A stretch of DNA of 5,414 bases, taken from the NCBI GenBank assembly GCA_029210545.1, contig JARGFV010000145.1, positions 1 to 5,414 of the forward strand, given 5' to 3'. Below the pieces are notes generated by a model that saw nothing but the letters and a program-made list of their open reading frames with translations, was not told the origin of the DNA and did not search any database. Positions 1-5,414 of this stretch are shown one piece after another. The translations under genes and the position numbers were made by a program. This DNA comes from a bacterium (lineage in GTDB: Bacteria > BMS3Abin14). Positions within the stretch are counted from its first letter, which is position 1. Each line of letters opens with the position of its first letter.

Positions 1-57
1 AACCGAAAACCACGCTTTTCGGTTCCCGTTGAGCCAAAGTCTTACCCGGACTTTGGC
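1..57. repeat. Composite two-hairpin repeat, copy 1
   Basis: Two adjacent perfect hairpins. Hairpin A has 9-bp arms at 1-9 (AACCGAAAA) and 16-24 (TTTTCGGTT) around the six-base loop CCACGC. Hairpin B has 9-bp arms at 33-41 (GCCAAAGTC) and 49-57 (GACTTTGGC) around TTACCCG. The same A-then-B arrangement returns at 80-159 and 5358-5414 with different stem sequences but similar loops. Neither hairpin A arm could extend left of base 1, so the element may be cut by the window edge. No reading frame here looks coding. Function is unknown; the pairing is seen directly. Confidence 0.75.
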
Positions 58-79
58 GATATTACAGCAGTCTCCGTGA

Positions 80-159
80 GGAAAGGAAAAACGACGCTTT
101 TCCCTATCCCCAGGACATTAATGAGCCAGAAAAAGTTCCGCCTGGACTTTTTGCGACTC
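80..159. repeat. Composite two-hairpin repeat, copy 2
   Basis: Hairpin A pairs 80-90 (GGAAAGGAAAA) with 98-109 (TTTTCCCTATCC), with one bulge and one mismatch, around a loop ending in CGACGC. Hairpin B pairs 130-138 with 144-152 and, after an internal mismatch, 123-125 with 157-159. Its upstream flank GAGC and downstream flank resemble those of copies 1 and 3. Copy 2 is the least perfect of the three. It lies downstream of tupB and outside its probable terminator. Confidence 0.65.
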
Positions 160-2999: not shown

Positions 3000-3040
3000 G
3001 CAAGAAAAAAATAACTAATTCTTACTAAATGCAACAACAG
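3000..3040 (-). promoter_or_regulatory. AT-rich leader, possible promoter region of the regulator gene
   Basis: This is a marked AT-rich patch in a GC-rich window, 34-74 bases upstream of the regulator start. On the minus strand TTGTTG (3037-3032) lies 17 bases before TTATTT (3014-3009). The spacing suits a sigma-70 promoter, but the second hexamer is a poor match to TATAAT. A transcription start here is plausible from composition and position only. Confidence 0.25.
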
Positions 3041-3180
3041 GAAGGTGGGAGGTGAAAGGAGAAATTCGGAAGATGGAAGGTGGAAGGTGAAACTGGGAGA
3101 TAGAATTCGGAATGTGGAAGAGATCGTTTGAACTCTGCTTTCCTTCCCGATTCCGCATTCCCCTCTTCCCTGTTCCAGCT
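3040..3180. repeat. Purine-to-pyrimidine low-complexity repeat island downstream of the PAS gene
   Basis: Bases 3040-3057 and 3075-3092 are direct repeats matching at 17 of 18 positions (GGAAGGTGG.AGGTGAAA), each followed by an AATTCGGA-type stretch. The purine-rich half ends near 3122. After a short mixed spacer, 3139-3178 is pyrimidine-rich (GATTCCGCATTCC, CTCTTCCC), an imperfect mirror of the first half. No coding sequence is supported. A similar island lies on the other side of the PAS gene at 4541-4635. Confidence 0.6.
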
Positions 3181-4540: not shown

Positions 4541-4635
4541 GCTATCGCTTGAAGAGGGAAGAAGGAATAGGGAATAGGGAATAAAATCCGAGTCTTTCTT
4601 CCATATTCCACCTTCCAGATTCCCCATTCCAACCA
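4541..4635. repeat. Purine-to-pyrimidine low-complexity repeat island between the PAS gene and yjbQ
   Basis: Three tandem 7-base units GGAATAG, GGAATAG and GGAATAA occupy 4564-4584 within a purine-rich run. After a short spacer comes a pyrimidine-rich run (4596-4630). The segment at 4564-4575 pairs with 4619-4630 (ATTCCCCATTCC) at 11 of 12 positions, so the island can fold back. The GGAAGGTGGAA word of the 3040-3120 island reappears here inverted. It separates the divergently transcribed PAS and yjbQ genes, so any promoters for them must lie in or beside it. Confidence 0.55.
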
Positions 4636-5086: not shown

Positions 5087-5275
5087 AGCACATCATCTGC
5101 TGCCTCCAATAACTACCCTCATTACTCTCCCTGTCCCCATGTGAAGCAATCTCGGGTTCCTGTAAAGGCGGCAAAAGCCTTAAGGCAGATGTTCCGCCCG
5201 TCCTCGCCCCTTCGACTAGCCCGCATTATTCATGATGCAAATGAGATGTCAGCTAACTGTGTGACAATTAAAGAT
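5087..5275. other. Gene-free intergenic stretch
   Basis: Nothing here has coding character. The open frame that crosses it (5066-5350) starts inside yjbQ and runs through the repeats and palindromes downstream, with no recognisable protein motif. Apart from the dispersed repeat copy at 5134-5153, I see only a small hairpin, AAGGC (5165-5169) with GCCTT (5177-5181). No tRNA or other RNA gene is recognised. Confidence 0.5.
5134..5153 (+). repeat. Dispersed intergenic repeat, copy downstream of yjbQ
   Basis: TCCCCATGTGAAGCAATCTC matches the minus-strand copy before tupA (1972-1991) at 19 of 20 bases. Sequence on either side is not shared: the upstream TGCGAGCCA part is replaced by other bases, so this copy is shorter or more decayed. 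Both copies lie in intergenic DNA. Confidence 0.6.
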
Positions 5276-5354
5276 GATGACTTCGCAAAAAGTCATCAAC
5301 GCGCCCCGCGCGGGGCGCCCAAATCAATGACCCGCATCGTAAGTCATTGATTTG
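5276..5354. repeat. Cluster of three perfect palindromes
   Basis: Three dyads follow almost end to end. First, GATGACTT (5276-5283) pairs with AAGTCATC (5290-5297) around CGCAAA. Second, GCGCCCCGCGCGGGGCGC (5301-5318) is a perfect 18-base palindrome with no unpaired bases. Third, CAAATCAATGAC (5320-5331) pairs with GTCATTGATTTG (5343-5354), a perfect 12-bp stem. Gaps between them are only a few bases. The first and third share the word GTCAT. The arrangement leads straight into the composite hairpin repeat at 5358. None has a convincing downstream T tract. Confidence 0.75.
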
Positions 5355-5357
5355 TAA

Positions 5358-5414
5358 GGAAAGGGAAAACGACGCTTTTCCCTTTCCGTGGAGCGAAAAG
5401 TCCCGGATTGGACT
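5358..5414. repeat. Composite two-hairpin repeat, copy 3 (cut by the window end)
   Basis: Hairpin A is perfect here: 12-bp arms GGAAAGGGAAAA (5358-5369) and TTTTCCCTTTCC (5376-5387) enclose the loop CGACGC. Hairpin B begins with GAGCGAAAAGTCC (5391-5403); the loop CGGATT and GGACT (5410-5414) follow before the window ends, so only the inner 5 bp of its stem are visible. Order and spacing match copies 1 and 2. Confidence 0.7.

Follow-up and report, generated by a model that had tools for sequence, protein, structure and literature searches.

Both ends of the window (the whole analysed stretch of 5,414 nt, whose ends are the termini of contig C145) fall within copies of a mobile repeat built from hairpins. 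The overall reading that we consider probable is that of a non-autonomous transposable element (MITE) whose inner part has a fixed architecture, five hairpins in series, and whose core is kept as RNA, with predicted CsrA sites, in gammaproteobacterial relatives. Insertion duplicates a short target, a resident DDE transposase would supply the movement in trans, and the inner hairpins would be retained through the reading of the element as RNA. Such a role would give a concrete and testable reason for the retention of a fold in the core of a MITE.

The five-hairpin unit in the window

The preliminary description had reported a hairpin A followed by a hairpin B at three places in the window, and the sequence, the repeats and the folds showed such pairs at all three. 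The CCACGC and CGACGC loops were flanked by a run of A and a run of T as described, and the switch of the stem from AACCG/CGGTT to GGAAAGGG/CCCTTTCC was real. The three pairs were correctly placed, but the unit is larger than a pair, and the hairpins H1, H2 and H3, which lie 5′ of the third pair at 5274–5357, had been overlooked. The full unit is 158 nt long and has the order H1-H2-H3-H4-H5, with hairpins A and B as the final two of the five (H4 and H5, respectively). Its instance in the window spans 5274–5414 and is clipped at the contig end.

In this instance, H1 (5274–5299; plus strand, as are all hairpins, spacers and terminal repeats given below) is the left terminal inverted repeat folded on its local complement (ATGATGACTTCGCAAAAAGTCATCAA; consensus TTGATGACTTCGCAAAAAGTC). 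It was recognized by sequence and forms the left boundary of the second copy, with AAAG directly 5′ of it. H2 (GCGCCCCGCGCGGGGCGC, 5301–5318) was assigned from its loop and from the fold of the homologue L007, and carries a GCGC loop where the gammaproteobacterial relatives have a CsrA-type ANGGAN loop. H3 (CAAATCAATGAC..GTCATTGATTTG, 5320–5354) corresponds to inverted repeat I24; its loop is variable, and it showed the strongest covariation in alignments A3 and A5. H4 (hairpin A, 5358–5387), with the apex AAAACGACGCTTTT, was assigned from inverted repeat I25 and its fold, and H5 (hairpin B, 5393–5414), recognized by sequence, is clipped at the contig end and complete in L007 and other copies.

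At the opposite end, positions 1–165, with the first two pairs, form a tandem H4-H5/H4-H5 variant with a period of about 81 nt, as also found in L005, L011 and L028. The first H4 (1–27; hairpin A with the CCACGC loop and the AACCG/CGGTT stem) has lost its 5′ end at the contig end and folds at 1–24; full-length homologues of it (GGGAACCG..CGGTTCCC) are present in L005 and L028. The first H5 (hairpin B, GCCAAAGTC..GACTTTGGC, 33–57) was assigned from its fold and from the 81–82 nt tandem unit of L005, L011 and L028. In the second unit, H4 (80–109) has the CGACGC loop and an imperfect stem, and was assigned from its fold and from direct repeat D3, which it shares with 5354–5387. The spacer between H4 and H5 (110–127) is the linker variant CCAGGACATTAATGAGCC, found in many copies of the same genome (L001, L005, L011, L014, L015 and L019), and the second H5 (hairpin B) folds at 130–152. 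The right terminal inverted repeat GACTTTTTGCGACTCAGTCAA (145–165), assigned from sequence and from the boundary and target statistics, is the right boundary of this first, composite copy, and the AATT 3′ of it gives an NNTT target context. Segments 1–24 and 33–57 folded as two hairpins with a z of −4.0, and 5358–5387 with the start of H5 gave −2.5; for 80–109 with 130–152, the fold of the single sequence was weak (z −0.7).

Tandem arrays of sub-modules were observed at L084:354-660 and L005:1201-1600 (H2-H5 at 133–143 nt, H4-H5 at 81 nt, and H2-H3 pieces). These arrays show that hairpin modules were duplicated internally.

Elsewhere in the window, the minus strand at 193–2966 holds tungstate-type ABC transporter genes (a permease and a TupA-like binding protein) and an HTH_17/PBP_like regulator, and perfect terminator-like palindromes lie at 171–211 and 1085–1120. 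Purine-rich repeats of the GGAAGGTGGAAGGTGAAA type at 3040–3120 and 4599–4628, with an inverted copy too, look like another intergenic repeat family. A 20-nt intergenic inverted repeat, GAGACTGCTTCACATGGGGA, is present at 1972–1991 and 5134–5153 (95% complementary, 3.1 kb apart).

Copy number and covariation

The copies in the window are a few among many. The sequence AAAACGACGCTTTT, with at most one mismatch, occurred 222 times in the genome of the window (G000, 2.7 Mb), compared with 0 for the reversed pattern, an excess that chance does not explain. A covariance model of the unit (R1; 158 positions, 52 pairs) matched at least 150 times each in G000, G003 and G004, 138 times in G006 and less often in the remaining family members, with no match in G001, so that copy number in the family of the window varies between none and at least 150 per genome. 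The length of 158 nt (<500 bp), the lack of coding capacity and the presence of at least 150 copies are those of a MITE. Many contigs of G000 start or stop inside a copy, at positions 8–26; in practice, these repeats break MAG assemblies and have fragmented the contigs of G000.

The complete copy L007 (same genome, 158 nt) folded into exactly five hairpins, with z values of −8.7 (DNA parameters) and −9.0 (RNA) against 200 shuffles, and full units overall gave about −9 to −10. The idea of a maintained fold, which the preliminary description had drawn from compensating stem changes, gained support from covariation in the copy alignments. In 22 non-redundant copies, mostly from the family of the window, 93.7% of cells paired and double-sided changes were present in 13 of 52 pairs; the covariation score was 0.168, whereas shuffled alignments scored 0.098 and slid structures no more than 0.081. 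For 27 divergent gammaproteobacterial H2-H5 segments, double changes were seen in 38 of 44 pairs, with a score of 0.490 against 0.177 shuffled. Relatedness persists after shuffling, and the slid structures retain it yet score far lower.

Ends, targets and mobilisation

The 5′ arm of H1 and the 3′ arm of H5 are the terminal inverted repeats, each folded on its own local complement, and TTGATNNNNTCGCAAAAAGTC is common to both ends in opposite orientation. With the element bounded by TTGAT..ATCAA and the expectation taken from shuffled partners, the two flanking bases were identical at 64 of 103 sites, compared with 9.1 expected, with AA before and TT after them (AANNTT target). No comparable excess was found at these 103 sites for duplications of other lengths, and the flank pattern can be taken as a duplication of 2 bp or of all 6 bp of AANNTT. 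Gammaproteobacterial copies with type b ends (GGAANCTCTGA..) had a YTAR target, with these 4 bp duplicated at 26 of 42 sites (5.5 expected), and those with type c ends (CAGGCTGTTGAAAAA) had a duplication at 6 of 11 (3.0 expected).

An insertion sequence adjoins an element copy at L212 (G000:C1:15778-17337). Its 520-aa protein has DUF772 and DDE_Tnp_1 domains, with IS1182 as the top NCBIfam match, under the model cutoff, and its ends TTGATGGACCCGCAATTAGTC / TTGACGGCATCGCAAAAAGTA lie in AANNTT contexts. The ends of this IS1182-like sequence matched the element ends at 18 of 21 positions, and related fragments in G007 and G009 at 20 and 15 of 21, respectively; shuffled ends equalled these matches in 0 of 20,000 trials. 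IS5-family elements in G310, G129, G139 and G173 have type b ends (15–17 of 19 positions), several of them with YTAR flanks. The match is not universal, as the elements of G070 and G218 are of type c while the insertion sequence detected there has type b ends.

Because it combines terminal inverted repeats and clean target duplications with a resident IS1182-like insertion sequence with matching ends, the element in the genome of the window is a MITE and not of the REP/IS200 type. Since the ends of insertion sequences match those of the element, we infer that a DDE transposase acts in trans, IS1182-like in the family of the window and of the IS5 family in Gammaproteobacteria. One core uses ends that belong to two or more transposase groups, through either end exchange or convergence. 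A structured core with the ends of different transposase families would have a way to outlive its own transposase.

The target duplications support the proposal of a mobile palindromic element made in the preliminary description; its suggestion of a REP-type or IS200-like transposase was not supported. A REP/REPIN-like or IS200/IS605-derived (PATE) element would depend for its movement on a Y1 HUH transposase that acts on hairpins in single-stranded DNA; the abundance of extragenic hairpins speaks for such an element, as do single RAYT and IS200 genes in the genome. IS200 and REP systems have neither terminal inverted repeats nor target duplications, and the element has both. In addition, the RAYT gene stands beside different repeats, the Y1 loci examined in relatives have no complete copy, and the many-copy members G006, G010 and G011 have no detected Y1 gene, which leaves this origin largely refuted and highly improbable.

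As to the individual candidates, the link to REP/RAYT was rejected, as the repeats flanking the RAYT of G000 are different and one copy about 0.8 kb upstream is expected at this density. At L032 (G000:C150), the RAYT-type transposase gene has short repeats of its own on its flanks (GCTCTGACACC / GGTGTCAGAGC), with which it forms a separate REP-like system. Derivation from IS200/IS605 was likewise rejected: a PATE has hairpins at its ends and lacks both terminal inverted repeats and target duplications, and the IS200 ends in L031 differ from those of the element. The loci examined around Y1 transposases in relatives contained no complete copy, and one of them, with only a truncated match, has an H1-type palindrome.

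Distribution and placement in Gammaproteobacteria

A genome-wide pattern scan reached MAGs of Gammaproteobacteria, among them one of Thiohalocapsa, together with one MAG labelled Zetaproteobacteria. In a survey of 274 genomes sampled from the class to which the gammaproteobacterial MAG G044 belongs, with ten candidates scored per genome, the model matched in at least 31. The gammaproteobacterial copies keep the H1-H5 order and the AAAAYNRCRYTTTT apex of H4, and differ in stems and ends. Four pattern matches in viral contigs all lacked the five-hairpin architecture, and no match was found in plasmids (two gammaproteobacterial copies as query) or phages (one as query). Rfam gave nothing at threshold in the window, nor anything overlapping the element in the gammaproteobacterial loci.

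The gammaproteobacterial copies lay between convergent genes in 21 cases, in antisense tandem in 14, between divergent genes in 8, in sense tandem in 6 and inside predicted open frames in 10. They stood near the 3′ ends of genes, at a median of 17 bp after a co-oriented gene, and the sense-strand preference beside genes expected from a 3′-UTR role was not found in them. Such positions agree with purifying selection against insertions and do not speak for a role of the sense strand in adjacent mRNAs. An RNA role, if there is one, is more likely to act in trans, through CsrA binding, or in both read-through orientations.

The same closeness to stop codons, mostly between convergent genes, would also be expected of 3′-end structures kept by the host, that is, terminators or mRNA stabilisers repeated by coincidence. 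However, selection against harmful insertions yields the same placement, and the spread in copy number inside one family and the target duplications, which indicate insertion, speak against such structures. Terminator function also leaves the GGA loops unexplained, and we regard this alternative as distinctly unlikely.

Predicted CsrA sites and probable selection on the RNA

In the CsrA/RsmA site RUACARGGAUGU, ACA and GGA are invariant, the loops are mostly six bases and AC pairs with GU (PMC7652899), and the ANGGAN hexaloops and CAGGA(U/A/C)G repeats of CsrB are published CsrA/RsmA sites (PMC3791407; PMC4066749). The gammaproteobacterial copies have loops of these kinds, either an ANGGAN hexaloop closed by C-G or CAGGA(U/A/C)G. 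The H2 loop was C-ANGGAN-G in 65 of 75 unselected copies, and the H5 loop was CA(N)GGANG in 58 of the 75, with another GGA loop in 14. Alignment A5 was selected for the H2 motif, so its H2 loop is invariant by construction, and the loop evidence is that of the 75 unselected copies. Hairpins with an A(N)GGAN loop and a stem of five or more perfect pairs numbered 113 on the plus strand of the element and 0 on the minus strand, compared with 14 in 294 kb of flanking strands, an enrichment of about 200-fold. The H2 stems have seven GC-rich pairs and are longer than the short stems favoured in CsrA SELEX (PMC7652899). From their sequences, we infer that H2 and H5 of the gammaproteobacterial copies are two predicted CsrA/RsmA binding hairpins.

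An excess of G-U over A-C mismatches in the stems is predicted by selection on RNA and not by selection on DNA. On the plus strand of the gammaproteobacterial copies, G-T and A-C mismatches, to which the hairpin finder gave equal scores, stood at 142:77 in 56 representatives and 43:12 in 16 divergent representatives (p 3e-5), in counts that ignore kinship. RNA-level selection is therefore visible in these copies, and a transcription-linked mutation bias could add to the G-T excess. At divergent representatives of the family of the window, the ratio was 20:19. The preliminary description had offered a folded RNA or an extruded DNA structure; selection at the RNA level could be seen in the gammaproteobacterial relatives but was not apparent in the family of the window, so that the answer differs by lineage.

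The family of the window also had only 2 strict CsrA-type hairpins in 103 copies, with a mostly GCGC loop in H2 and a CGGATT loop in H5, in which the leading A is missing, outside the CsrA/RsmA loop patterns. The csrA gene (PF02599) was detected in 1 of the 12 family genomes (G000–G011), compared with 29 of the 31 element-bearing genomes of the gammaproteobacterial survey. In G041, csrA is present and the copies retain GGA loops. The exceptions were G007, with csrA and without the loops, and G056 and G171, with the loops and no csrA found in genomes that are possibly incomplete. As csrA is mostly present also in gammaproteobacterial genomes without elements, it is no predictor of the element. 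The correlation between csrA and the loops runs in the direction expected if CsrA binding maintains the loops, and is essentially one contrast between clades. In the family of the window, the loops would have been lost after csrA.

If the element were purely a DNA parasite, its hairpins would act solely at the DNA level, by forming cruciforms or single-stranded folds at the ends, and the GGA loops would be inherited sequence with no RNA role. DNA ends suffice for movement, and the balanced mismatches and near absence of CsrA-type loops in the family of the window agree with this, as does the lack of a sense-strand preference near genes. The gammaproteobacterial bias among divergent representatives argues against it, as does the restriction of CsrA-type loops to the plus strand while the stems vary by paired substitutions, and we think such a parasite rather unlikely.

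In the reading of a MITE whose core is kept as RNA, H2 (C-ANGGAN-G hexaloop) and H5 (CAGGAUG or ANGGAN loop) in Gammaproteobacteria and in the one MAG labelled Zetaproteobacteria resemble two CsrA/RsmA sites, and each transcribed copy could bind one CsrA dimer. In the family of the window, where csrA is nearly absent and the loops no longer fit, the copies are probably in decay, or else spread simply as DNA palindromes. A wider proposal, which we put forward tentatively, is a mobile RNA superfamily that brings two CsrA/RsmA hairpins to many places in a genome as a dispersed CsrA sponge or a CsrA-controlled mRNA tag, persists across lineages by swapping its ends to those of the resident transposase (IS5, IS1182-like) and drops the CsrA loops in lineages that lose csrA. 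Were this true, a transposon family would disseminate the sites of a global post-transcriptional regulator, which would tie genome parasites directly to the Csr/Rsm network.

Comparison with known repeats and RNAs

Literature searches did not find the core or end sequences or a link between CsrA sites and MITEs, and we did not find a description of this pairing of mobile DNA with regulatory RNA in the literature searched. A review of MITEs names BOX elements and does not mention CsrA (PMC10969869).

Like Correia/NEMIS, ERIC and QMITE, the element is shorter than 500 bp, gene-free and intergenic, with terminal inverted repeats and target duplications; their transcripts, too, are predicted to be stably folded, and they are moved in trans by an insertion sequence (PMC10969869). 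Unlike them, it has five separate serial hairpins with conserved loops, terminal repeats folded on local complements, the same core with IS5-type and IS1182-like ends and, in Gammaproteobacteria, CsrA-type loops. The BOX elements of Streptococcus pneumoniae are, as here, modular, with units duplicated internally and an RNA-like fold that is conserved. Their sequence is unrelated and they belong to a different phylum, and we know of no CsrA-type hairpins in them.

REP/REPIN and CGTC repeats are likewise abundant extragenic palindromes, but they are single palindromes of 20–40 bp with an end tag (PMC3733652), compared with a 158-nt five-hairpin unit with target duplications. The CsrA-sequestering sRNAs CsrB, RsmY/Z and RsmV share the GGA-in-loop hairpins; an H2 hairpin can be aligned with the consensus hairpin of RsmV (cGACACAgGGAUGUGUC), with overall similarity to the Rfam RsmV family at chance level (E 0.58–0.84). 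These sRNAs are single regulated genes with many sites, whereas each copy of the mobile, multi-copy element has two predicted sites.

The gyrA RNA motif (RF01740) resembles the element in its GUGAG linker with two hairpins, and differs as a gyrA leader that is not known to be mobile. The H4-H5 part of type d gammaproteobacterial elements (L249:532-619, L170:124-209 and L264:790-880) matched RF01740 with 30.7–39.5 bits (E down to 1e-6), the best of these being below the curated gathering threshold of 45. The leader motif of gyrA could be a relative of such an element, or a domesticated copy of one.
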